This document shows, piece by piece, positions 5,296 through 45,300 of a DNA stretch of 64,000 nucleotides. A program made the position numbers and the translations under genes. The notes below the pieces were generated by a model, which made no database searches, was not told where the DNA came from, and was given only the letters and a program-made list of their open reading frames with translations. The stretch is from assembly GCA_018389105.1 (NCBI GenBank), contig JACATO010000334.1, forward strand, positions 124,001-188,000, given 5' to 3'. The DNA comes from Nautilus pompilius (Eukaryota; Mollusca; Cephalopoda; Nautilida; Nautilidae). How positions within the stretch are numbered: position 1 is the first letter of the stretch; each line of letters opens with the position of its first letter.

Positions 5296-7383
5296 TCATT
5301 CTCTATTTAGTGGAGAAAATTCAATGGCAAGCAACAGGTATTCAATATTTCCTCGTTGAACAAATGACATACCATTAAAGGCTGTAATGTCCAGAATAGT
5401 TCTGACATCTTTATATTTGTTATAAAAAAAAAAAAAAGATTTAAAATAGAAAATAATTTATGTATAGACGATAGTCAAGAGAGATAGACAGAAGAGAATG
5501 AAAGTAAACAAGAGATAGTGGAGAGATTGAAAGGAGGGGAGAGAAGAGAACGAAAGGAAAAAGACACCTATCAAAGGGGGAAAAAAGGGGAGGATGGGTG
5601 GGAGAACGAAAGGAAAAAGGCGCCTATCAAAGGGGGAAAAAAAGGGGAGGATGGGTGGGAGAACGAAAGGAAAAAGACACCTATCAAAGGGGGAAAAAGG
5701 GGAGGATGGGTGGGAGAACGAAAGGAAAAAGACACCTATCAAAGGGGAAAAAAGGGGAGGATGGGTGGGAGAACGAAAGGAAAAAGACACCTATCAAAGG
5801 GGGAAAAAAAGGGAGGATGGGTGGGAGAACGAAAGGAAAAAGACACCTATCAAAGGGAAAAAAAGGGGGAAGGATGGGTGGGAGAACGAAAGGAAAAAGA
5901 CACCTATCAAAGGGAAAAAAAGGGGGAAGGATGGGTGGGAGAACGAAAGGAAAAGGCGCCTATCAAAGGGAAAAAAGGGGGAGGATGGGTGGGAGAACGA
6001 AAGGAAAAAGACACCTATCAAAGGGAAAAAAGGGAGGATGGGTGGGAGAACGAAAGGAAAAAGACACCTATCAAAGGGATAAAAAGGGGAGGATGGGTGG
6101 GAGAACGAAAGGAAAAAGGCGCCTATCAAAGGGGGAAAAAGGGGAGGATGGGTGGGAGAACGAAAGGAAAAAGACACCTATCAAAGGGATAAAAAGGGGA
6201 GGATGGGTGGGAGAACGAAAGGAAAAAGACGCCTATCAAAGGGGGAAAAAGGGGAGGATGGTGGGGAAGAACGAAGGAAAAAGACGCCTATCAAAGGGGA
6301 AAAAAGGGGAGGATGGTGGGAGAACGAAAGGAAAAAGACGCCTATCAAAGGGGGAAAAAGGGAGGATGGGTGGGAGAACGAAAGGAAAAAGACGCCTATC
6401 AAAGGGGGAAAAAAGGGGAGGATGGGTGGGAGAACGAAAGGAAAAAGACGCCTATCAAAGGGGGAAAAAAGGGGAGGATGGGTGGGAGAACGAAAGAAAA
6501 AGACGCCCTATCAAAGGGGGAAAAAAGGGAGGATGGGTGGGAGAACGAAAGGAAAAAGACGCCTATCAAAGGGGGAAAAAAGGGGGGAATGGTGGGAGAA
6601 CGAAAGGAAAAAGACGCCTATCAAAGGGGGAAAAAAGGGGAGGATGGGTGGGAGAACGAAAGGAAAAAGACGCCTATCAAAGGGGGAAAAAAGGGGAGGA
6701 TGGGTGGGAGAACGAAAGGAAAAAGACGCCTATCAAAGGGGAAAAAGGGGAGGATGGGTGGGAGAACGAAAGGAAAAAGACGCCTATCAAAGGGAAAAAA
6801 AAGGGGGAGGATGGGTGGGAGAACGAAAGGAAAAAGACACCTATCAAAGGGGAAAAAAGGGGAGGATGGATGGGAGAACGAAAGGAAAAAGACGCCTCTA
6901 TTTCTTTTCCACAGTTTAAATGAAAACTGTAAACATTTTCCATCGCTAAATGCTACCGAGTCGCCTTTCTACAAGGACATTTCACGGGAACACAGCCAAG
7001 GAAATAGGTGACGAGCTATAAAACGATAATCATGATCTTCTCGGAAGGAGAACATTTTAAGAACCCCCCCCCCCCCCCCCCCAGGAAGGCGGCGGCCGAC
7101 GGACGGGCGGAGGAGCTCCCTCTCGAGTCCGGCGGGCCGTCTTGGACAGTAGTAATCTCCACCATGATGGTGGTTGGTAACGAGCAAGAAGCCACCCCCG
7201 GGCCCTGCCGAGGGGAGGGGGGTAAATCACCGGGTGAACGGCGTTCATTCGTCAGCACCACCACGGGAACAGACAGACAGACACAGGCCTACAATGAAGC
7301 CGGGCAGACGAAAGATTAACACTCACCAATGGCAGGAACAACCAGACGCAGGCAATTTTCAGTCTCTTGAGCGGCGCTGCCAT
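5296..7383 (-). CDS. Tentative minus-strand gene: signal-peptide first exon and terminal exon
   Basis: Two separated exon-like segments. The first (7383 down to 7327) starts with ATG, encodes MAAPLKRLKIACVWLFLPL, which looks like a signal peptide or anchor, and ends at a perfect donor GTGAGT in phase 0. It lies in the CpG block, 609 bp from the divergent start of the VOPP1-like gene. The second (5408 down to 5296) follows a long T-run and an AG, encodes VRTILDITAFNGMSFVQRG then NIEYLLLAIEFSPLNRE, and ends at TGA. The two do not join directly: the first ends in phase 0 and the second needs one preceding base. At least one more exon would have to be present, and the interval is largely filled by a minisatellite. 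I do not recognise the protein. They may be unrelated or chance open frames. Confidence 0.3.
5515..6896 (+). repeat. G-rich minisatellite, about 25 units of 52-57 bp
   Basis: About 25 tandem units begin with gaacgaaaggaaaaagac and continue through cctatcaaag, a G-run, an A-run, a second G-run and aggatgggtgggag. Successive starts include 5548, 5604, 5661, 5716, 5771 and 5827. Units differ mainly in A/G homopolymer length and by a cacc/cgcc variant: cacc dominates the left half and cgcc the right half. Unit length is not a multiple of three and the plus strand has no stops, so all three plus frames stay open for hundreds of codons. This is a repeat artefact, not protein. Most units fit a G-quadruplex pattern of four G-runs. 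Confidence 0.95.
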
Positions 7384-8460: not shown

Positions 8461-11400
8461 AGGGGAACGCTTCAGCAAAGTTCCAGCTTTACTTGAAACT
8501 AAAGTTACTGGATCAATAAATCACAAAAAAAAAAATTAAAGAAAGAAGGTGTCCCAGTGTGGGAGTTAATAAACCCAACCGTAGCCAATACGAGTAATCG
8601 GTTTGTGGAGTTTATCCATAATAGTTTACCATAACAGAATATGTGGAATGAGCGCTATCTTTTAATCCAAACGGAAACTTCAAAGATAAAGATCATGTGG
8701 TAATATTTATTGCCTGTCAGTCTGTTAAGGAATGTGTACCTCACCAGCTGTTACCAGAATCATTTTTTTTTTTTTTTTTTTTTACAGTGGGCTTCCTTAA
8801 TGAGTTAGAAATCTGTCGTCTTTGCAATATGTTAGTTTGTTGCAGAATATACAGCAAGCATTTGAGAGAGATTCCTTTGTTGGTACTTGGCTAAGCTGCC
8901 TTTTGCTGCAGCACAAAGAGCCCCTCTACTGTTTGGCAAGAAACCAAGCAAGTATTGTTATCACAGTGTGGTCCAGGTTCCCTATATCCTTTCGTGAGAG
9001 AGAGCTTTAATTTCATCATATTGATGAGATGTGGGCAGGTTTTTCAGTAGAAGATCCAGCTGTTCCCATACATGATTGGCTCGGTGTTGGGACTTTAAAT
9101 GCCTTGATTCCTCTTCCACCTGAATATGTGGGGGGGCATTGAATATCAGCATGCTTTGCCAATGAAATAATTGGAAATGTCTTTAAAATGGTAGTGTACC
9201 TAGCAGAATTGAGGTGTCCTTTGATAAATAGCAGTTTTGTCTTTCTACCAGACTAGATTATAGCCCTTACCTTATACTCCGATCTCCATGCTTGACTTTG
9301 AGCTGGAGATATTGGGTTTTAAGGCCTTTTTAAGCTTTTTCTTCATATCCATGTGCAGTCTCCAGACATGAATTGCTAAAACCTGAACTCATTGGAGAAG
9401 AGTAGATGTCACAGTACATGAGAGATTCACCAGAGAGAAACCTGAAACATTTTATTTCTATTGTACAGAAGTGGGGTTCTTGTGTGTTACACATTCGGTA
9501 GTATCATCAATGGTGATGGCATTAAACCATTCTTAGGCTTATTTCTTTTTTATGTGTGATTCCAGCAAGTTAATTTTGATGGTGTGCAGACATGGTGAGT
9601 AATAATAGGCTGCTTTGCCATGCCATTAACGTTTTACTCAGAACTTCATGATAATATTCACCATAAATCCATGAGAAATGTCAAGAGCTTTGGCAGTCTG
9701 TCATTGGCTCTGACCACACTGAACAGTCCATAGCATCACCTCAGAGAAATATGGCAGAATTCACTTAGACATTCAGGCATAATTACCTGAAATATGTAAA
9801 TTTTAAATAGAAACTCATTTATAGGAATGTTCAAATTAATATGTCAGGGCACTGAATATCTTTATACAATAGCCATTGTAAATATACAGGGTGTTTCAAA
9901 AAATTTGATATCATTTGAGATGTAAATATCTGAATAACTACATAGTCTAGGCAGATGAAACTAAACAGGCTTAATGTTGAGCAAAATAAGATTTATTCAT
10001 CAAAATTTGAATGAGAAATTCAAAGGTATGTGGATTTCATGAACGATTTCACAAGTTTTCAATATGCGCACCGCCTGTGACACGGCACATGTCAAGTCGG
10101 TAGTCCAGCTCCTGCCAAACACGCTGCAGCCTGTCTTGGATAACAGTCTCCAGTGCGGCAGTGATTCTCTGCTTGAGTTCCTCTAGCTTGTAGAAAGAGG
10201 GGGGGCATAGACCAGTCCCTTCAAATAGCTCCAGAGAAAAAAATCGCAAGGTGTCAGGTCAGGTGAACGTGGTGGCCATTTAAACAGCACATTGTCTTCA
10301 TCACCAGCACGCCCGATCCATCTCCCTGGCAGATTCTCATTGAGATAAGCCTGCACAGTGAGGTGGAGCCCCGTCCTGTTGAAAAATGAAGTGTCCATTC
10401 TTTCGATACTGATGGTCCTCCAGATCCTTTTGCCCTGCACAGACAGCCTTCCTCTTTGAACTTTTTGTACCATGTCCAAATCTGCATTGCAGTTGGTGCA
10501 TTTTTAGTGAATTCTCTCACAAATGCCCGCTCGAGCATACTCTAACACACAAAACGCCTTTTCTTTTCCAGTGAATGGCATTTCTATACCTGAAAAGAAA
10601 AAAACAAAAACATTAAACATAGAATTTTGAATTGTTTCTACACATGCTGTTAAAATTTGAGATCATTTGAACAAGAATTGGTCAAGTTATTAGATTACGA
10701 AATGATATCAATTTTTCTGAAACACCCTGTATATATATATATATATAAAATTAGGTTTTCATATGTAAAATAACAAAAAAATTTAAAAGGATTTTGCTTG
10801 GTTATTTCAAATGGGAATAAGTTTAAGCTAATATTTTATAATTTTCATAATGACACTGAAATGTACATATCTGAACAAATAAATGTTCTCAAGGACTGGT
10901 TAATATTGTAGTCAATAATATATTTTAATGTTTAGTGGACGGATAGTTCTTCGTAACCTTTTCAATCATAAACATTGCTTTGCTAAAGTTCACTTAATCC
11001 ATAAATGGTAATATTCATTGTTTTGGGTATGGTTTATTTAGTGTGGAAATCTGATGATACATTTTCTCCAATAGCTAACAAATCTAATCATGGTTGCCAA
11101 GGAATTCTGTATCCTGGGGGAAAGTAATGACATTTGTTTAAAAAAAATTCTAGGAAATAGCATTTAATCTGTTTGGTGCTGTGTGTGTGTGACATTAATA
11201 TTATTTTAATAATTTATCAGTGATATACTTTATTTTACTCTTGTTCCATTTAATACTATTTTCTTGTCTAACTTGTTTTCACGGTTAAAGAAGTTTGTAG
11301 ACAAAACAGTGGTTCATCTTATACTGGAGATTACATCCATTACTAGTGCACATGATGATATTTGTAGTTGGGAAGTGGAACATGGACACATGCTAAAAAA

Positions 11401-27864: not shown

Positions 27865-30800
27865 TTAATATTTCTCACAGTTTGCTGAAGAATACTGTGT
27901 GCACTGAGAATCGGATGTGATCTCCTTGTAGCCCTTCACTCTGTTCAGCTTAGAACCTAGTAAAGAGAGAAACATATTCTTAAAAACTAGCGTGTCTGCT
28001 TTCTTGCAGTTCCTTTAAAAGGACTATTTTCAAACGTGTTGATCCTGCAGACACACATGCAAACAATTTGATTCAAGTACTCATAAAATTTTTTCAAATA
28101 GCCAAAGTCTTGAGTGCATTAGAACAACAAATTTAGCATATAAGATTGCCCATCCTGAGTTTGGCTACTGAAAAGTAGCAGCAGCACCATCCACCACTCG
28201 CTAGTTTCATGATGTGATAAAGAAACAAAGTTAAATCCACTCAGCTTCAACTAAACTTAAAAGTCTCACGACCTGAGCCTGGTAAAGTTGGTATGGTCAA
28301 AACAAACCACTCGGTACTGATTAAATCACCAGAAATTCAAATATATGTAAAATTGTGGTGAATACATTAAGGTTTTAAAAAAAAATGAATATATATTTGA
28401 CTATCTAATATGTGCAAGTGTATAAAACTGGTGTACTCACCTATAACTAGGTTTTCCAGATTACAGTAATTTGTACCAAAGTCGAGAACAGCATACCATT
28501 TTTGTGACCTGGAAATGCCCTAATTTTGTAAAGAAAAAGGTATAGTTTCAACAAACTTTTCCTGGGTAAGACTAATGAGCAACTTGCTCTATGAATGTAG
28601 AGTTAAAAAGGTTAACTTCCAAAATTTACTTTCCCACTGACATGGTTAAGTGTAGAAGTCCATAGTTTTATCATGTATTATGATCTAAGGGTAAGTTTCG
28701 ATGTTAAAAACAATTGCAAATTATTAACTAATTAAATACAGTAAAAACATCAATTATCCACACTAAATGGAATCAGGGGATGTTCAGTAAATCATTGTTC
28801 AGATAATCAAGTTCTCAAAAAAATTGAGTGAGTGTTAATGAGTATCATACCACATTCCTACATGGGAACCTATATTAAATTACTGAAAGTTTGGAAGTAA
28901 ATAAAGATAGATCTGTCCATTTATAAGCACATTTTATTGATTAGTTGAACAATGTCATCAATCAGTATTAAAAGTCTGAGTCTTGTTTAGGAACTGCAAA
29001 ATTGCATTCATTTGAGCAACAGTTGAGTTGCTTCTGTTCCTTCCTGCCACTCCCAAGTTGAAACAGCAGTCAATTCTCTCCTTAATTTCAAAATGGCTAT
29101 GTATGTTACTAGTTTCATCATTGACTACACCATCCTCATCCATCTGATCATCGCATTTAATCACACTTTCTTCATCTGTTTGGATAACATTATCAAGCCA
29201 ATCTTTTACACTACTTCTAAAAGGTCTGGTTTTAATAGACAAATTTTCAAATGAAAACAACACTTCACCTTGAGAATACATTTGGATCCAGTTGAACAGG
29301 TGAAGGTCAAATCATCAATATACCGACTTTTCGGTGTAGTGTGGGTAGCGGTTATTTGAGTTTTGTTCACAGTTTCCAGCTGGAAAAAAAAGAATCTACA
29401 CATTTACATACACTGGCAAGCCATACAAAATAAAACAGAGGGCTAGTTTGCATTACCAATAAAATAATTCACTAAGCATAAAAGAGAATATAAGACCCCC
29501 CAGGTTTGCTAGGTTTTATGCTATAAGTGTGATTAATTATTAATATGTGCTAATAAAATGATTTATATACTAGATATTTCTTCAGTAGTCCACAATTTTG
29601 GCTGTCAGAGTAGTAGAGAGACACGAGTGAAACAAGTGCATTGTTAACATTTACAAAATGTTTTGCCTTCAAGGTCACAATTCCTACATCCAAGGAGGTC
29701 ACATGATAGCTCTATATTTTACAGAATGTTGGTGCCACGATACCGAAAAGCATCAAAACTGTATGATGCATTAAAGCCAAGCCATAGGATTCTCTGCTTA
29801 TTAAATGTAAAATATGCAGAGCATCCACAACTTCATTTTCTTCATGGCTGCTGATTCAGACTTCAAACTGAAAATAAAAGAAGCTCTAGCAGATTCACTG
29901 AAGCCATCCTTAGACCTCAAAGAGACTGTTTCCACTTTTTAATGTTGCTAAGTAAAGAACTGTAACTTCTTATTTCAAACAGAAATTAAGATTCACAGAG
30001 CAAAGCAAAATATCAATTGACAAACTAAAGGAGTGATGCTGGAAATTCATAGATTGTTTTCTGCTTTCTATGTTTCCATCTCACCACTTGGTTTTTTTTA
30101 AAAATTTATTATGCTTTCAGCGGATGATGTATTGTCTTCACCAAAATTTGTCCATATCAGTTTCAATTTTTTTTTTCAACCTGTCTCACCACACACGTAA
30201 GTCAGAATGATTGTTCAGCTTTTGCTGACTTGGCCCATAGTAAAGTTGGTGCTGCTTCTCTTGCTAATAAAATGATTTATATACAAGATATTTCTTCATT
30301 AGCACCAGTCACCCTGAAAGTACAAGCCGCCATTGTGAGCCAAGACACTGGCATGAGAGCAGAAACCACCACGTAGTATGAACACTAGGGTGTTGATTCT
30401 GTCATGACATGTTATGGCCTGGTCCTACAGGATGAGTTTTTTGGGTAAAATGAATAAAAACAAGTCTCATTAATATTTTTTTGGAAAAATGTCCCCCACC
30501 AAAAGTAATGAAAGTCAGCATATCAAAACAATTCAGATAATATATTTATAATGAAAAGACGTATGTTGTTCTACAACTATTGTATGAATAAGTCTTTTAT
30601 AATAAAATAAAATATGGTAAGAAATTGTTTTATTCCACTGGTAATCATGAAATAACAACTACAGGAATACAAATGCAATTAGAGAGTACGCAAAAAGTAC
30701 ACATCAATTAGAATTAGAATCAAGAAATCGTAAATTGAGACTGTCAATGGACTTGCAAGTAGACGTGATCTCTTTTAGTAACTTATAGCTCGTTCAGCAC

Positions 30801-33800
30801 AGATATTTGATCGTTGAACACCTGGAATCACTGAGGCCTGACGGCTCCAGAAATTATTCAAACTGTTTAAAAGCTTTTTGGCAGTTTAATGCTTTTACTG
30901 CATCCGTAACCTTGGCAGCATCTTCCTCACAGAATTGATGAGCTGAAAACCATATATCCATCCACACGCCAGACAGGAAATCACAGATTGCTTTGAGCTG
31001 CTCTCTATACTCAGGCAAAAGAATGAAAGACAAAAGAGCAAGAATGCCCCGTGAATTCCATCTAGCATTGCTCATCGCAGGTAGTTTTTTAAATTTTATG
31101 AAGGGAAAAGCTCTGTTCTTACAATAGTACTTGTAGTAACAGCACAGTTCATAGAGATATTGCATATCATCGCTCCACTTGAGGTCCTTCACTTCAACAG
31201 TTCTTCACTCTGAAGAAAATTTTGGCGGAGCTCATTGTAGTTCCGAATTAGATGATCAGCAAATTCATAAGATATTTCAGATGAAGTAGTTCTCCCAGGA
31301 AGCTTGTCATTCATGAGGTGCTTGAGAATTGTGTCCAGTATGTGGTGCTGACAACCAACATATTGTGGTAAAGGAAGCCCTCTTCTTGTGAATTCCTGTC
31401 CTAACCGCTTTACCACACCACCAAGTCTTCCAGTGTTCACAGCCGTAGTGTCCGTTATTATCATCAGAATTCTTGGCCAAAGTTGAAACTCATCAAGAAC
31501 TTCAACAAGACCATTGTAGATGCTTATTGCTTTGCCATCATGCAATTGCATTACCTTCAACCAATTTCTTTTTCAGCATTCTTGAGCAAAACAACTTGGA
31601 GTTCTTTTTCGCCTATCTTCTTTCCATCAAAGTGCAACCACCAATCTTCATTCTTCAGGGTCTCTTTGTACTTTTTTGGGTCTGCAACATTTGTCTTTTT
31701 CTCTCTCTATAAACAGCAGCATATGATGGAGTTGGCATCTTGTAGCCCTCATCTGACAGCTGTCGACACAAATTAGCAGATTTTCTCAGAGAAATATTTT
31801 GTTTTCGTGATAAGCTTGCAGCAGTTCTGGCAGATTCATATCTTCGCTTATTCTTTTGTGGTGACAATTCCCATTCTTCTTCTCTTGGTGGTTGATCCTC
31901 AGCAGTGGTGTCAGTAGCATCACTTTCCTGGCCACTGGAGGAAGAACTCAATACTGATGATGATGTTGCTGCTAATGTTAAGGCTCCCACTTCATTTGCC
32001 TGAGATTTTAGCAAAGCCATCTTGCTTGGATGGATGGACCCAGTCTTCTCTCAGTGACATAACCAATAGCCCCCCTTAGACTTTACTTGTAGTTGATGTA
32101 ATTTCTTGTCCTCAGCACTCAGCCATATACCATCTGCTTTGGTGAGGTCAAAAACTCCAGCAAAAATTCTTTATCATTGGCTTTTGGTTTTTTTAAGTGC
32201 TTGTCATGCTTTACAAGCAGATTCTCAATTTTCCTCCTTACTGATTTCTTTGTGATACATGGAAAGTTCAATTTTGACCAAAGAGTCACCAGTTCTTCTG
32301 AAATAATATCAACTCGCTTCCTTCTCTCCTTCTTTTGCTCAGCAAGATATTTGTATCTGCCAATAATCATGGCTTGTGTTGACATTCGCACATATTCATG
32401 CAGGCTTTACTAATAATTTTTAAGCCTTTTCTGGAAGAGCAGCTCTTTTTGTAATGGATTAAATTCTTGCTCCATATCACTCCACTTTTGTCAATTTCTT
32501 TTTTGCTGCGTTTATAAGACATCATAAAGTATGTAAACTTGTCGAGATAATTGCACAAATGAATAAGTGATATCTGAAAATGTAAACAGATGCAAATATA
32601 AAAGTTGCAGTGGTGGGGGAGTTTTTCGTAAAAATAATAAAAATGAAAGTTATTTCCATGACTTTTACCTAAAGACTCATCCTTTCATACACTGGCCTTC
32701 ATGAATTTCTGAAAAAGCCACAAACAATCAACACCCTAATGAACACTGCTGGAGAGTTCCATCTGTAAGAACTCTTACGATCAGTCACAGAGATGTAATA
32801 GTGAAGCAAAGAAGTCATACAGAGATCAGCTTACAGAAACAAACAACAAAAAAAAAAAAAAGAAAATATTCCAACTATACATTTACTTACTCCCTACAGG
32901 AGAAAGGTTGTATCTGTACAACATTCAGCTGTTGCAGAAACAACTATATATATATAGTAGGGGATGCTAATGGCCAGCCCTCCAGCTTGGACTACAAAGA
33001 GATTGACAGCAGAATAAAAAAACAGAAAAATAGCAAATTGATAAGCACCTCATATACAGTGGCACATGATGATCCAACAACATACTGTTGCTCCAGGAGA
33101 TGACCCATACCACCAACACCAGACTTAGCTTTCGCTACTACTACTATTTCAAAACTAGAAAGAAACAAAGCGAGGAATCAACCAGTCAGTTACACTCACA
33201 GTTGATGCAAAACCATCACCAAACCAGACAAGAAAATCAAGATGGAAAAAAAAGGGGGCAAACTAGTGACTAATAAATACATGAGAATATTGACGCACAA
33301 CATCAGAACATGAATTATACATTATGGATGTTCAGTGAGGCGATACTAGGACCCACCAAATTAGCCATACCTGGAGGGGCCCACCAAGAATTACAAAATT
33401 TACTGGAAAAGGAAATTGCAGGAACTTCATGATGGTTTAACAGATGCAATAAAAAATAAAGAGGAAGCCCAATAAGAAGAACAATACTGCTCCTAATCGT
33501 GCTAAATCTAGATGTAACAAAGGCAAGTTGCACACAGTACAAGAGAGCTGGAATGACAAGAGAGCAGTCTCAGCTCGGAACGAGATGGTAAGAAACGGTG
33601 CAGATTGATGGAACAGCTGAATGATGAAATCAATACTCAAAGAGAATGGAGAAACCATCAGCAGAAAAGCAGCAGCAAATGTCTTTCTATCTTGCAAGAT
33701 TGAAAGTACAATTGAAATTCCAGTACATCAAAAGTGAGTACAAGAGAAAAGATCAAGCAAACAATATACAGTGGCTCCAGAAGACACTATGAAAACAGCT

Positions 33801-36800
33801 ATTACTACGCAAGACTAGCTTGTAGTTATCAGTTAACTGAAAATCCACTAATAGACTGGACCCAAAAAAAATTTCTTGAAGTCAAGGCAATAACTGTATA
33901 ATCAAAAGAATTAGATTTCAAAGGCATGTTATTGATGGATGGTAAACTTTACCGAGCATTTGCAGAGTGGATACAAATCTACACAGAAGGGTCTGCCAAA
34001 GTAGCAGCTATGGACAGAGGAGATAGAATACATACACAATATGCAGCGGTCAGGGAACTAACAAAAGGATTTTCATAGGTACCAAGACTGAATCTGAAAC
34101 TCTTTGAAGCTGCTAACATTCCATTTGCAAAAGATTTTTACTGCTGACAAAATAATGTCTGTGCAAAAATCCTTTAAAAGTGAAAACTTAGAACTGGTCC
34201 TGTCTTTTCTGCAGGCAGTTATCCAGTGGATTCCTATGCATGGTGACAGTGATGGCCACAATCATTGAAAAGCATAGTTCTATAAGCAGTCCTGAACTGG
34301 AGATAGACTGTCTGTCAGGTGTGCCTGCAGACTGTCAAGAGAGACAGCAACACTGGCCAGAACATATCAACCTCCATCAGAAAGCATAACTTTATGGAAA
34401 AAAAGAGAGAGAGAAACAGCAACAACAAAAACAAAAAAATCTGCTGTATTAATCAGGGATGTTACACTGCAAATGATGAGAATGATGTTGGAAGAAAATA
34501 CACATTTTTTTTCTGATCTCTTGCCTCTTATTCAGCTCCTTAAAGAGGAAAGCTTGATGCGTCTGCCCACTTTTGACTTTTTTGCTTGTTTCTCATCGTT
34601 ACATCAATAAAACCACAAGCACAAATCAAATTTACTGAGCTAAAATCACCATCATCAAAAAACATGCATGCTATGTACCACACTAACTGGCCATCACCAT
34701 TACTTTTCAATTCCAAAAAATGCAATGGAACTTATCCTTAAATAATAAGCAAATATGGCCATCATTAATTATTTTAGTGATGGTATTAGGTATTTGCAAG
34801 AAATTATTTCTTTGCAGATAATGTGAAAGTAAATCATTTGAAAAAAAAAAAAAGTGATGAGCTTATTGAGTTTTATTTTTTTTTAAAATATAAATGTATC
34901 TTAAAGACATCTTAATTGCCCATTTAACTGAAAATTCACTATCTATTGCATTCTTCTGTCTAAAGTTACTGCAGAATAAAACCATTTTAAAAAATGGTAT
35001 TTTACGAAACAGAGAACTTTTATTATGTGTGTGTGTGTGTGTGTGTTCCGGTCTCTGGTTTGACACTGTAGACAGATAATGCTGGGATTTGACAAAAAGT
35101 ACTAACTCAGTTACAGATACTGCAGAGAGTTCTGTAGCAAAACACTACTTTTACTATACATTTTTTTTAATTAACCGGACTCAACTAAGGCATTCGAGAT
35201 CCCAGTTTTCAAGCCTCGCCCCAGAGATACCAAACAAACAAAAGAAGATTACTTTATAAAGGCACTTTTCTCCTCCCTGTTTGCAGTTTTCAGGTCCACT
35301 CCAGAGCTTTATCTGAGACACTAGATTTGTCAAGATGTACGAGCAATTCGAATCAAAATTCCTGCAAAGAAAACAGAAGCGTTAAGTTCACTTGGTTTTC
35401 CTGGCAAGAACGGCAACTGGATGCGATCCTAGCATCGCCTCCTCTTTGAACTAACAAATAAGTTCATTTGGTTTTCCTGGCAAGAACGGCAACTGGATGC
35501 GATCCTAGCATCGCCTCCTCTTTGAACTAACAAGTAAGTTCATTTGGTTTTCCTGGCAAGAACGACAACTGGATGCGATCCTAGCATTGCCTCCTCTTTG
35601 AACTAACAAGTAAGTTCATTTGGTTTTCCTGGCAAGAACGGCAACTGGATGCGATCCTAGCATTGCCTCCTCTTTGAACTGACAGACTACAAAATAGTAA
35701 AGGATTCAATTACTTTATCCAATTAAAGAAAATTGAATATGCAGTAACTGTGGCAGTTTTATATGAGGTGAATTTTGCTATTTTAACTGAATTATTTATA
35801 CATATTTAACATATTTGTAAGATAAGAATATATATATATCTGATTTCCATTTTCGGAAAGCTTGGGTAAAATCATCAGTATTGAGAATAACAAACGAGAT
35901 ATTATACAGGGAGTCACTGAGAGTGGGGAAGGGGGGATAACTCAAAGGATAAGAGTTGCTTCCCTTAGACCATACTTTACAAAGCATGTTATTTCAAGGG
36001 AACCACATTAAGTATATTTATCACTTTCTCGTTTCTTTTAAGATTTTTAGATTAAGGAAACGGTTAGGCGTTACCCAGCTCCCTTCACGATTCTCGGGGG
36101 TTAGTTTTTCGATATCCGGATCACGAAGCATCCCCGAGCCCGGACAGGTTCGGCACTGTGGTAATATTTGTTGGTTCCGCTGTTTGGTTAATTGTACCAT
36201 CACCTTCTCCATTCCAGGACGTATTTCACACCCGAAGCACATCCCGATTGGCAGAACAGGGGGCGCGTAGGCGTCTCTTTAATTCCCTCAAAATCGTGCA
36301 GAATGCCGAGTAACGAGTACTGTTAAAGGGGAATACATGGGGGGGGGGGAGCACATTTCAGCCCTCGCCCACCGGGCAGCTGGAACAGTTAATCTCATCG
36401 GCCCCCCCCTCCCTGAAGAAGCGAGGTAAGGGGGCTGCGGATGGACGATAGCGGAAGTCAAGAGGACGAAGGGCCCAGCGGCAGACAAGCAGAACAGGTA
36501 ACCCTAACGTCGGTCCGACGCCGCCACGGGTAGTCTATTAAAGGGACGACATCCTCCTTAGGGAAAAAAAAAAAAAAAAACCTTCTCCCACCCCATCTAA
36601 TAATAAAATAAGGGTATCTACGTGTGTGGCATTAGAACTTTTGCCCCCTCCCACCGTTGGCGGGGGGGGTCCAGCGACTTTAAACGACGAGACAAGAACA
36701 GAAAGTCCCCCGCGACTTTAAACCGTCATCTTTATTTCCTCACGCGCGCGGATTCGGTGACGCGGATAGCGGCAGCCGAGCTGCGGTGTTTGCCATCGAT

Positions 36801-36910
36801 GTGCACGTCCGTACTCACCAGGTGACCAAACACTGGGCATGAAGCGGCATCGATGCACAATAATCGGCGAACGCCAAAAAAACGACTGCGACGAAGGAAT
36901 TCATTTTCAT
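27865..36910 (-). CDS. Secreted cysteine-rich protein, five small exons, unnamed family
   Basis: Exons on the minus strand: 36910-36819, 35361-35253, 29379-29269, 28519-28441 and 27956-27865. All junctions are GT-AG and phases agree (2, 0, 0, 1), giving exactly 161 codons with the stop. Residues 1-20 or so form a signal peptide (MKMNSFVAVVFLAFADYCAS). The mature part has nine cysteines (27, 37, 57, 64, 95, 101, 123, 149, 157), possible N-glycosylation at N36 and N72, and conserved-looking blocks CLVTWNFDSNC, GGEKCLYK, RYIDDLTFTC, WYAVLDFGTNYCNL and CTQYSSANCEKY. From memory it resembles an uncharacterised family of small secreted proteins in invertebrates and fish; no function is known to me. 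The start lies in a CpG-rich block 637 bp from the divergent CFAP69 start. Intron 2 (5.9 kb) carries a TIR element and a LINE. No exon exceeds 111 nt. Confidence 0.85.
28739..29255 (-). mobile_element. Tigger/pogo-like transposon fragment
   Basis: The left edge after TA (cagtaaaaacatcaattatc, then gttcagataatcaag) has the look of a Tigger terminal repeat. On the minus strand an open frame ending at 28958 (DWLDNVIQTDEESV, RSNSTVAQMNAILQFLNK) resembles the acidic C-terminal tail of TIGD-type transposases. The other end and most of the transposase are missing. The fragment lies in intron 3 of the secreted-protein gene, directly after the exon 3 donor (29268). Confidence 0.55.
29546..30306. repeat. 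Pair of direct repeats about 45 bp long, 715 bp apart
   Basis: tgctaataaaatgatttata with the following tac(t/a)agatatttcttca is found at about 29549-29595 and again at about 30263-30306, with two or three differences. The sequence between shows no recognised gene. Confidence 0.7.
30387..32737 (-). mobile_element. DNA transposon of unresolved superfamily with intact ends
   Basis: Inverted ends AGGGTGTTGATT at 30387 and its exact complement ending at 32737 enclose 2351 bp. They are flanked by tatgaacact (30377-30386) and aatgaacact (32738-32747), a 9-10-bp target duplication. The minus strand encodes one decayed protein in several pieces: a charged N-terminal domain (32391-32119; RKRVDIISEELVTLWSKL), a Ser-rich linker and SLSRKQNISLRKSANL (32020-31655), a likely RNase H-fold core (31560-31189; MIITDTTAVNTGRLGG and YVGCQHHILD) and a C-terminal part (31192-30854; ARWNSRGILALLSFILLP). 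The D, C-x-H and RWNS landmarks recall hAT or MULE transposases but fit neither cleanly. It is broken by several stops and frame changes. Confidence 0.75.
32800..34270 (+). mobile_element. Decayed LINE with endonuclease and RNase H relics
   Basis: The plus strand near 32930-33130 reads IVGDANGQPSSLDYKEID and PTTYCCSRR, then PTPDLAFATTTI in a neighbouring frame, matching the apurinic-type endonuclease of I/R1/Jockey-like LINEs (GDFNAHH.W, TPDLS). Near 33980-34260 it reads WIQIYTEGSAK and later VIQWIPMHGD, matching the IYTDGSA and LQWIPxHC landmarks of a LINE RNase H domain. The reverse transcriptase expected between them is not visible, so the copy is internally deleted and degraded. It lies in antisense orientation in intron 2 of the secreted-protein gene. 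Confidence 0.65.
35384..35687. repeat. Four tandem copies of a 76-bp unit
   Basis: Units start at 35384, 35460, 35536 and 35612 with aagttca(c/t)ttggttttcc and run through ggcaactggatgcgatccta and gcctcctctttgaact. Spacing is exactly 76 bp and differences are few, so the duplication is recent. The array begins 23 bp upstream, in transcript sense, of exon 2 of the minus-strand secreted-protein gene. Confidence 0.95.
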
Positions 36911-37000
36911 ACTGCGCAGTTTTCTCCCCCCCCCAACCACCAGCGCTTCTCAGCTCGTTCCCTTTAATTACGGAGGAACCCGGAAGTTACCGAAATACCT
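36040..37000. promoter_or_regulatory. CpG-rich divergent promoter region
   Basis: CpG-dense sequence in AT-rich surroundings (for example cacgcgcgcggattcggtga at 36739-36758 and cggtccgacgccgccacggg near 36511). It covers the minus-strand first exon of the secreted-protein gene (36819-36910) and lies upstream of the CFAP69 start at 37548, which suggests shared promoter sequence for two divergent genes. Confidence 0.6.
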
Positions 37001-42300: not shown

Positions 42301-45300
42301 CCTGAAGAAGAGAAATCATCATACAATCAAAACAATCATTATCGCACCTCTAAAATACTTAATAGAAATAAACGTAATTTTTTCTCTCTGTACTGTGTCG
42401 CTTCTCTGTTTGATATCCATGAGAATTTAAGAGAGATATTGGGCATTTTATTCATTTTTAACTTTTGAAAATTTGTTTTAGTTATCTTTTATATTGATGA
42501 TTTTTATACATTTAGGAAAATGGTAGTATTATAGACTGTTTATTTTATTTATTGTACATATCTTTATATTCTGAAACTGGTCCAGTTTTAGAAGTTTGCT
42601 AATTTTATTTTACATACAGGCAGTAGTTATTCTTTTTTTCTTTTCGAAGACGATATATTTTACTTTTAACACTTGTGTTTGCTTTATTGGTCTGCTGAAT
42701 TTACATAACCCTGACATGAAAAATCAGTTTCTTAAAGATCTGGTGCATGTTTTTAGCATACTGAATATCTGTTGTGATAAAATTCTGGAGATTCCCAAGT
42801 ATGAAGAGGGGGTCTTGGCAATATTCCAGTTATGCAGCATGTCATTTTTGAAAGAGAAATCTTCAGATGAATTGGTCTATGAAGAAATTGTGAAAGAATG
42901 CATATCTCAGTTGGGTAAGCAGAATGCATGCTAACTGAACTGCACTGAAATTTTATGTTGGGACTCAATTCTTAAAAAAATCGATGCAACTTTAATAAGC
43001 AAGAAAAATTCAAAATTAGTTTTCCCACTTGGTTTATGCTTCATTTTCATTTTCATTTTATAAACCCTGATTTTGACTTGCTTAGCAAGGAGGGAAAGTA
43101 ACATTTCATACTAACATTAACAGCAACATTTATATAACCATTCTAATATTGATGCGATGATAAATTGGATGGGTAACAGGTGTAAGTAGCAGCAAGTAAT
43201 ATAATCATTCTAATGCTAACAATAACATTTACCTACTAGCTAAAGGGTTAAGGCAGCAGCCATTAGTTTAGCTTCTTAATATTGATAGCATTAAAAATGT
43301 TTAACAATACATTATTTTATTTGATACCCCTTAGAATAAAGCTGATATAAGCATCACTGCCTTGATTGTTTGTTTTTTTTTTTGCCTTTACTTTTACCTT
43401 ATATAAAAACAACTTGCATTGATGGTAGTGAACCTTCTTTTTATAGGTTACCTGATGAGAACACCAAGTATAGCAGTCCAGAAACAAATCTGCAAGACTC
43501 TCCTTTCATTTTACACTGAAGAACCTATTCTGAAAGAGATACAAAGTATGCATGCTTGAAGTTTTATTGACAACTGTTTACTAATGTTACAAACTTTCTG
43601 TTTACTTGCACTAGTTGACACTTTCTGATATGTAAAAATGTTCTTGAAACAAAAGGGTAAATCACTTGTTGGTAAATGCTGCTGTGTTTTATGGTTATTT
43701 AACTGCTGAGAATAATGTAAAGGAACAGGTCAGAAAATCAGGCAGGTAGGAAACTACTGCTAAACCTGCAGCTAAGAATCTTTGATGGAAATGTGTATAA
43801 TAAAAATACTTTTTCTCTTTTTTTTGTCCTTTTTGAAAATAGTAAGAATATAAATGAAAGTTAGTGGTAATTTTTCAGGGAAATTCCTTACTAGAATTCT
43901 TCTAAATGTGCGAGGAAATGGAAACCCACACAATTGGCCAATGAAGAAGAGTAAGAGCTGTTTTTGATTGGGGATTAAATTCTGGTCCACAACTTTGGCA
44001 ATCTAGAGCTGGGCCATTGGCTACCCATATATATATATAATTTGTAAGGCTAACTTGTTTTAAAATAGTTTTAGTGAATTACAGAGGGGCAGGAATACAA
44101 GTCCTTGCCCTCTAAATTATGTCCAATGTATTTTTGAATGTATTGAATGTCACACTGATTTAAGAGCCTATTATTAACAACAACAAAAAAAGAATAACAT
44201 TTATGGATACTCGGCTTACTATGACATTGACAGAGTTTTGTCTGAGAGTTCAAAATTACAAAAAATTTAGACTTCTATATTTATCCCTTATTTATTAAAA
44301 TTTTCCCAGTACCCAAATACAGTTTCTGTAAAGTTATTATGACATTTTGCAGACTAGGGTATGAGTGGATGGCTATTCCAAATAGCGCTCTGAAAAAATG
44401 TGAACCTGTCAACTTAAAAGTATCTGTGAGTGAGTGAGTTGATGGTTAAATGGTTAGCCTCCTAGTTTGGTATATATTCAAAGCCTGCTAAGTGATCATA
44501 ATTTTCAACATGGCAATTTATAACCTTTTTTTTTTCCAGTCTGTTTTTTGGTGCAATTTGTACATTACAAGATAACTCTTGAGACATTAATGACTAGTTC
44601 TTTAGGTACATTTATTCTGCAGGTTTCTCTATTTAGTGCTGGCTCATGGTGGAACCTGTAATTTTAGCTGGAATACAGGCATGTAGCATCACAATTAATG
44701 GACCATTTCAGAAGTGCTTGATGCATATTAATTCTGACACTCCTTAATGAAAGAATTTGTTATAACTTTTCTCATTAGAACTCAAAGATTGTTGGAGTAC
44801 TCAGAGTAAAAATGCACCAGTGAGCTGGATACCCATTCCACTGGCTGGTTGCTGAAATGAGGAGTGTGTGCAATCAGTGCAATCACCTGTCATTTAAACT
44901 AACCTAAAATAGAACAGCTAGCACTTTTCCAACTTACATCTATTAGTAAATGTCCTTCCATGCAGTATTACCAGCATATTCAAAAGTACAAAAAGGTATC
45001 ACATTTAAACAATTATGTCTGCATAATTTAGGATAGGTAGTGCTTTGATATCTTTTGAGAGATGGATGCATCTTTTATATTATTTTAGGCATTTTCATTT
45101 ATGAATTAAAAAAAAATATAAATTGGATGTAAAATTCACTTTGCTTTTCTCTTTTTTTCTCAAACTTTTCAATATTTCAAACTTTTTTTAAAAGAAGTTT
45201 TTTTATATACTATCAATAATATATTCATAAAGCTTTCTTTGGTCTGGATTGTTTTTATTGTTTAGAGTACCAGCCATGCTCTCGAGCCTACATGCAGAGA

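Follow-up and report, generated by a model that had tools for sequence, protein, structure and literature searches.

On the minus strand of the 64,000-nucleotide (nt) stretch analyzed here (positions 124,001 to 188,000 of contig JACATO010000334.1 from the Nautilus pompilius assembly GCA_018389105.1, hereafter the window), we characterized a five-exon gene for a small, cysteine-rich protein with a predicted signal peptide, which belongs to an unnamed family found across the animals. The exons (table 1) sum to 483 nt, corresponding to 160 codons and a TAA stop. All four introns are of the GT-AG type, with lengths in order of 1457, 5873, 749, and 484 nt, and the codon phases at the junctions are 2, 0, 0, and 1 from 5' to 3'. 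The original prediction, made from the letters of the sequence, had proposed this gene; its exon borders, lengths, and phases were reproduced, the AATAAA poly(A) signal was found where it had been described, and the hydrophobic start, judged by eye, agrees with the proposed signal peptide. The four junctions are putative splice junctions read from the sequence. By tblastn, 169 relatives of the product matched the five exon pieces in collinear order when compared with the whole window, with best expectation (E) values of 1e-5 to 8e-13. Because the relatives match the same five pieces in order, the exon set is more than chance, as the original prediction had argued. Nowhere else in the window did a match reach E < 1e-3, and no second copy was found there. 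The CpG-island-like stretch at exon 1 (compare a GC content of 0.343 and a CpG observed/expected ratio of 0.33 for the whole window) is the probable promoter region. The window almost certainly encodes a real gene. Its product contains ten cysteines, nine of them in the mature part since Cys18 lies within the hydrophobic start, and two sequons, NCS36 and NKT72.

Table 1. Features of the cysteine-rich protein gene, in positions of the window
Feature	Position	Strand	Remarks
Exon 1	36819..36910	-	92 nt; ATG, signal peptide, start of HAxC motif region; best tblastn E 1e-5
Exon 2	35253..35361	-	109 nt; Cys37, Cys57, Cys64, CLYK; best tblastn E 8e-13
Exon 3	29269..29379	-	111 nt; ATHTTP, YIDDLTF, Cys95, Cys101; best tblastn E 3e-8
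Exon 4	28441..28519	-	79 nt; SxS, WYAVLD, GTNYCNL; best tblastn E 7e-11
Exon 5 and stop codon	27865..27956	-	92 nt; CTQYSSANC; best tblastn E 2e-11
Predicted signal peptide, about residues 1-20	36851..36910	-	Hydrophobic start ahead of MPLHAQC, judged by eye
Poly(A) signal AATAAA	27820..27825	-	40 nt past the stop
CpG-island-like stretch around exon 1	36300..37000		GC 0.541, CpG observed/expected 1.06; borders chosen by the authors

Intron 2 contains a run of broken open reading frames (ORFs) sharing a single orientation (30854-32391, minus strand) that resembles a decayed mobile element; four of these ORFs have no credible Pfam match. A 76-bp (base pair) tandem repeat, present in four copies with 97% matches (35383-35684), ends a very short distance upstream of the acceptor of exon 2. 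Over the end of exon 3 lies, in another frame, a 107-residue ORF (28958-29281, minus strand) with weak and implausible Pfam matches.

Of 119 candidates compared with the 160-residue product as a single query, 114 proteins reached E ≤ 0.001, with identities of 38-58%. A profile built from 33 members recovered 681 relatives among 4325 candidates. We aligned the window protein with 238 of 250 fetched relatives, leaving out 12 because they were fragments, of odd length, or contained X. In these 239 rows, 38 positions are conserved at 90% or more, and the window protein retains all 38. Its cysteines 27, 37, 57, 64, 101, 123, 149, and 157 each occur in 238-239 rows. Of the nine mature cysteines in the original prediction, eight are therefore family features and Cys95 is not, this position being occupied by F in 155 of the 239 rows. 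The two predicted sequons are likewise present in the window protein without being characteristic of the family (they occur in 23 and 13 rows of 239). The blocks that the original prediction had likened to those of proteins in other animals, CLYK, DDLTF, WYAVLD, NYCNL, and CTQY, are indeed conserved motifs. Ten polar residues, H24, H80, D89, S107, S109, D117, N121, Y122, E142, and Q151, are near-invariant (234-239 rows). Members such as zebrafish LOC100535932 (P0072), Haliotis rubra LOC124259459 (P0003), and Lottia LOTGIDRAFT_143540 (P0006) consist of a single domain similar in length to the window protein, which differs from the family in its additional Cys95 and two sequons, all rare among the members. 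The membership of the window protein in this unnamed animal-wide family is secure.

The search returned relatives with conserved cysteines in molluscs, an annelid, fishes, and many other animal groups. Named rows include Amphimedon (sponge), Trichoplax, corals, anemones, a chiton, gastropods, bivalves, the annelid Owenia, a brachiopod, a bryozoan, nemerteans, a rotifer, a priapulid, crustaceans, hemichordates, echinoderms, amphioxus, sea squirts, cartilaginous fishes including sharks, bony fishes, and amphibians. The highest identity of the window protein is to a chiton sequence (60%). In a tree of 92 rows, which leaves 41 of its 89 inner branches unresolved, it pairs with a sea cucumber protein (97/84), both on long end branches. 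Among the matches listed (the best 120 of 681 and, in another search, 120 of 637), no insect, nematode, or amniote name occurs, no dedicated search having been made; as most matches lie outside these, we do not claim a loss in the three groups. Two transcripts from protist collections match the family, P0101 (mmetsp) and P0159 (labelled Colp12), possibly through contamination by animal prey. We rejected a protist origin for the rows labelled 'merc', as their representative P0106 shares 56-62% identity with proteins of the copepods Oithona and Tigriopus. Animal-type peptide patterns matched 6, 33, and 14 stretches in the virus and prokaryote searches, none of which was confirmed as a relative, and the family consensus gave a single chance-level match to plasmids by tblastn (E 9).

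The original prediction had described the product as secreted, cysteine-rich, and of no named family; in agreement with this, nearly all the named rows among the relatives with the same eight cysteines are entered as 'uncharacterized' or 'hypothetical'. The exceptions are automatic names, 'C-type lectin domain-containing' in three amphibians and 'ECT2-like' in one sea squirt. The lectin name found no support: up to E 10 Lectin_C did not match the window protein, nor is it among the eight Pfam families found for the 33 members at E ≤ 0.1, which include the so-named P0029 and P0040. In the open literature we found neither a name nor a function in print for the animal family, the sole mention being a zebrafish row in PMC3706446.

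Profile comparisons connect this family to the bacterial family DUF1499 (PF07386). At E ≤ 0.1, PF07386 matches 20 of 33 members (best E 5.9e-7), and at E ≤ 1.4e-4 it matches 7 of 97; two longer relatives exceed the Pfam cutoff with 23.6 and 23.4 bits. As a DUF1499 query we used a consensus sequence that Pfam places in DUF1499 at E 1e-43. The bacterial set comprised one annotated DUF1499 plasmid gene and 80 loci (the best 80 of 434), which were fetched with six peptide patterns and then reduced to the ones closest to the consensus; 51 members were examined. The E value for the alignment of the animal and DUF1499 profiles is 8.7e-6 (55 columns) and falls to 5.4e-6 when the larger animal alignment is used. 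In the latter case the score is 38.8, whereas none of 200 column shuffles exceeds 24.6 and the reversed profile scores 12.9. The two families share a core signature D, SxS, DxGxN. In bacteria, its residues D75, S92, S94, D100, G102, and N104 are fixed in 51 of 51 members, a conservation inflated because one fetch pattern, GYSDLGVN, holds part of the signature and because the set was cut by likeness to the consensus; D75 and the SxS part occur in none of the six patterns. The window protein has the whole signature, whose residues are found in 234 (D89), 239 (S107), 235 (S109), 239 (D117), 215 (G119), and 239 (N121) of the 239 animal rows. H24 does not vary among the animal rows, and the histidine that aligns with it is present in 43 of the 51 bacterial members. 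Besides the signature, a DUF1499 protein such as L047 of Nitrospira defluvii shares with the animal family the predicted topology and a significant profile similarity, whereas the animal proteins have additional cysteines and a further segment at the C terminus. A lipobox in the first 60 residues, searched with a crude pattern, was found in 13 of the 51 bacterial members, so that some of them at least look exported. At one bacterial locus (L058:3878-5449, plus strand), the DUF1499 ORF is 524 residues long, and its long C-terminal part has no Pfam match at E ≤ 0.01. The sequence comparisons and the structure models suggest that the animal family probably descends, as a distant branch, from a DUF1499-type ancestor.

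In the structure models, the domain is predicted to consist of a short first strand followed by a helix, four strands, and a helix, a topology of the KA1/TBP-like type. The order of predicted elements agrees between the animal and DUF1499 models, the animal side being represented by a model of the relative P0003. The top structural matches are non-enzymatic KA1-type domains; the wider fold includes some cyclase-like members. KA1 domains, such as those of the AMPK alpha C-terminal domain, Chk1, and MARK kinases, have no sequence relation to the window protein, which gave no match to the KA1 profile of Pfam up to E 10. Within kinases they are cytosolic parts, and they lack the disulfides proposed for the animal family. 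For the helix-grip/TBP-like proteins (BamC N-domain, Aha1 C-domain, PR-10 allergens) we found no sequence relation either, and the PR-10 type has larger sheets. Searched by sequence among solved structures, the single query and DUF1499 gave no match, and the profile gave matches only at E 0.15 or worse.

The start of the protein was classified by a heuristic in 244 of the 250 relatives, four others lacking the HAxC motif and two having fewer than 15 residues ahead of it. The start is short and of the signal-peptide type in 192; the remaining 52, read as membrane-anchored, carry a long N-terminal tail, unlike the window protein, with over 15 residues ahead of the hydrophobic stretch. A YxxO motif is present in 26 of the 52 tails, compared with a mean of 10.3 and a maximum of 19 in 1000 shuffles, a count inflated by relatedness, and in 14 of the 25 named rows among them; an acidic dileucine motif is present in three tails. 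Among 15 hand-picked genera, each represented by one tail, YxxO occurs in 12 (mean 3.1, maximum 10 in 10,000 shuffles), again inflated by relatedness. Left out of this set were the named rows of Mobula, Narcine, Danio, Danionella, Pelodytes, Gigantopelta, and Amphimedon, none of which has YxxO, and of Crassostrea, which has it, because they resembled extensions made by gene prediction or unusual signal peptides. Second rows were also omitted for Saccostrea (with YxxO) and Branchiostoma (without). As the genera were chosen after the motifs had been seen, the fair measure is the count over all 52 rows. YxxO signals direct endocytosis and lysosomal sorting. Since they serve endocytosis too, a route through the plasma membrane is also possible. 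We found no support for the anchored members being a single ancient paralogue: the anchored label requires 14 changes on the tree, at least four of them forced by well-supported branches, and the anchored and soluble forms do not therefore constitute two clean clades. The site of action is probably the secreted or endolysosomal lumen; its assignment to the endolysosomal lumen specifically is tentative.

A clue to the compartment comes from zebrafish. LOC100535932 is listed among 30 strongly iridophore-enriched zebrafish genes in a table of PMC3706446, and iridosomes are characterized as lysosome-related organelles in PMC7584913.

The explanation that we consider best, with about an even chance of being correct, is that the gene encodes a 160-residue, DUF1499-related member of the family acting as a disulfide-braced ligand binder in a lysosomal or extracellular lumen. 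The signal peptide would take the protein into the secretory pathway, where up to four disulfides would stabilize the small domain in an oxidizing or proteolytic lumen. The shared polar residues D89, S107, S109, D117, G119, and N121, and less strictly H24, would form the proposed binding site; the predicted topology puts them on strands four and five and in the loop that precedes the final helix. Its ligand would most likely be a small molecule or a lipid head group. Some relatives may reach the same lumen as membrane-anchored proteins by means of tyrosine-based sorting tails. Unlike the gene and the family, the mechanism is not secure, and a ligand binder rather than an enzyme is only a tentative proposal. 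A more specific scenario, which we regard as improbable, is that animals inherited a bacterial envelope-type DUF1499 domain and armored it with four disulfides, turning it into a dedicated lumen protein of lysosome-related organelles. Delivered by a signal peptide or a YxxO-tailed anchor, it would bind purine, pteridine, or lipid cargo and be required for crystal-bearing vesicles such as the iridosome.

Several observations weigh against the lumenal ligand binder related to DUF1499. A sorting tail is missing from the window protein itself, and the clue from expression amounts to a single table row for one fish (PMC3706446). The Foldseek E values are modest (best 4.9e-4 and 1.5e-2), and the KA1/TBP-like fold is common and no guide to function. 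Against PF07386 the window protein scores 17 bits (E 0.0082), below the gathering cutoff of 22.6. With the option -glob 0, hhalign gave a weak result (probability 9.7, E 8e-4, score 19.9; 30 shuffles scored at most 5.7). The animal rows lack the CPxSPNCV motif and the arginines flanking the signature, although in the bacterial members examined the C, N, C, and V of this motif and R91, R95, R105, and R107 are present in 50-51 of 51. The bacterial neighborhood shows no recurrent partner among ten co-oriented neighbors in nine loci: a lipocalin, an acyltransferase, a mechanosensitive channel, an AraC-type regulator, DUF4190, and NYN are single cases, and four have no match.

The protein could alternatively be a secreted or lysosomal enzyme, in which the ten near-invariant polar residues would be catalytic and not merely binding. 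Their conservation goes beyond the needs of a purely structural domain, and the six positions shared with bacteria are fixed there as well; however, no known enzyme family was matched in Pfam or NCBIfam (in the latter, one chance-level match for 5 proteins), and the best structural matches are non-enzymatic, with some cyclase-like members in the wider fold. We consider an enzyme somewhat unlikely. A secreted structural, signal, or immune protein (a matrix component, hormone-like ligand, or host-defense factor), with cysteines serving extracellular stability only, would fit the signal peptide, the eight conserved cysteines, the small size, and the soluble appearance of most members. Such a role appears unlikely because the polar residues are very strongly conserved from one animal group to another, unlike those of fast-evolving immune proteins, and because the YxxO-tailed relatives and iridophore enrichment point to an organelle lumen. 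The likeness to DUF1499 might also be convergence or chance and the family an animal invention, as only 54-55 columns align well, the two peptide patterns of the animal motif were unconfirmed in viral contigs and the prokaryote genome collection, and the window protein and its animal relatives show the differences from DUF1499 set out above. The profile score well above 200 shuffles, the same order of predicted elements, and the two relatives passing the Pfam cutoff make this quite improbable. A decayed or mis-joined gene is extremely improbable: the model derives from sequence and not RNA, and the 5.9-kb intron holds mobile-element-like debris, but all 38 near-invariant residues are retained, the reading frame has no stop, the splice sites are intact, and both the CpG-island-like 5' end and the poly(A) signal are present.

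Elsewhere in the window, an ORF at 42596-42934 (plus strand) contains an exon of a homologue of CFAP69, the cilia- and flagella-associated protein 69 (Pfam PF21049, E 2.6e-19). Long overlapping ORFs in three frames at 5518-6923 (plus strand) encode a short charged repeat of the GGRTKGKRxLSKGEK type and look like a tandem array, not a gene. Two overlapping ORF pieces at 10183-10538 (minus strand), with only a weak helix-turn-helix match in Pfam, resemble a broken mariner-type transposase.

The original prediction did not include the distant relation to DUF1499, the predicted KA1/TBP-like fold, the sorting-type motifs of membrane-anchored relatives, or the clue from expression in zebrafish. The core residues of this family are nearly unchanged from sponges to fishes and amphibians, yet we found neither a name nor a function for it, which represents a gap in animal biology. 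The DUF1499 link, the polar signature common to both families, and expression in iridophores offer testable handles by supplying a fold, candidate residues for the site, a compartment to look in, and a model organism. A function solved on the bacterial or the animal side would inform the other.
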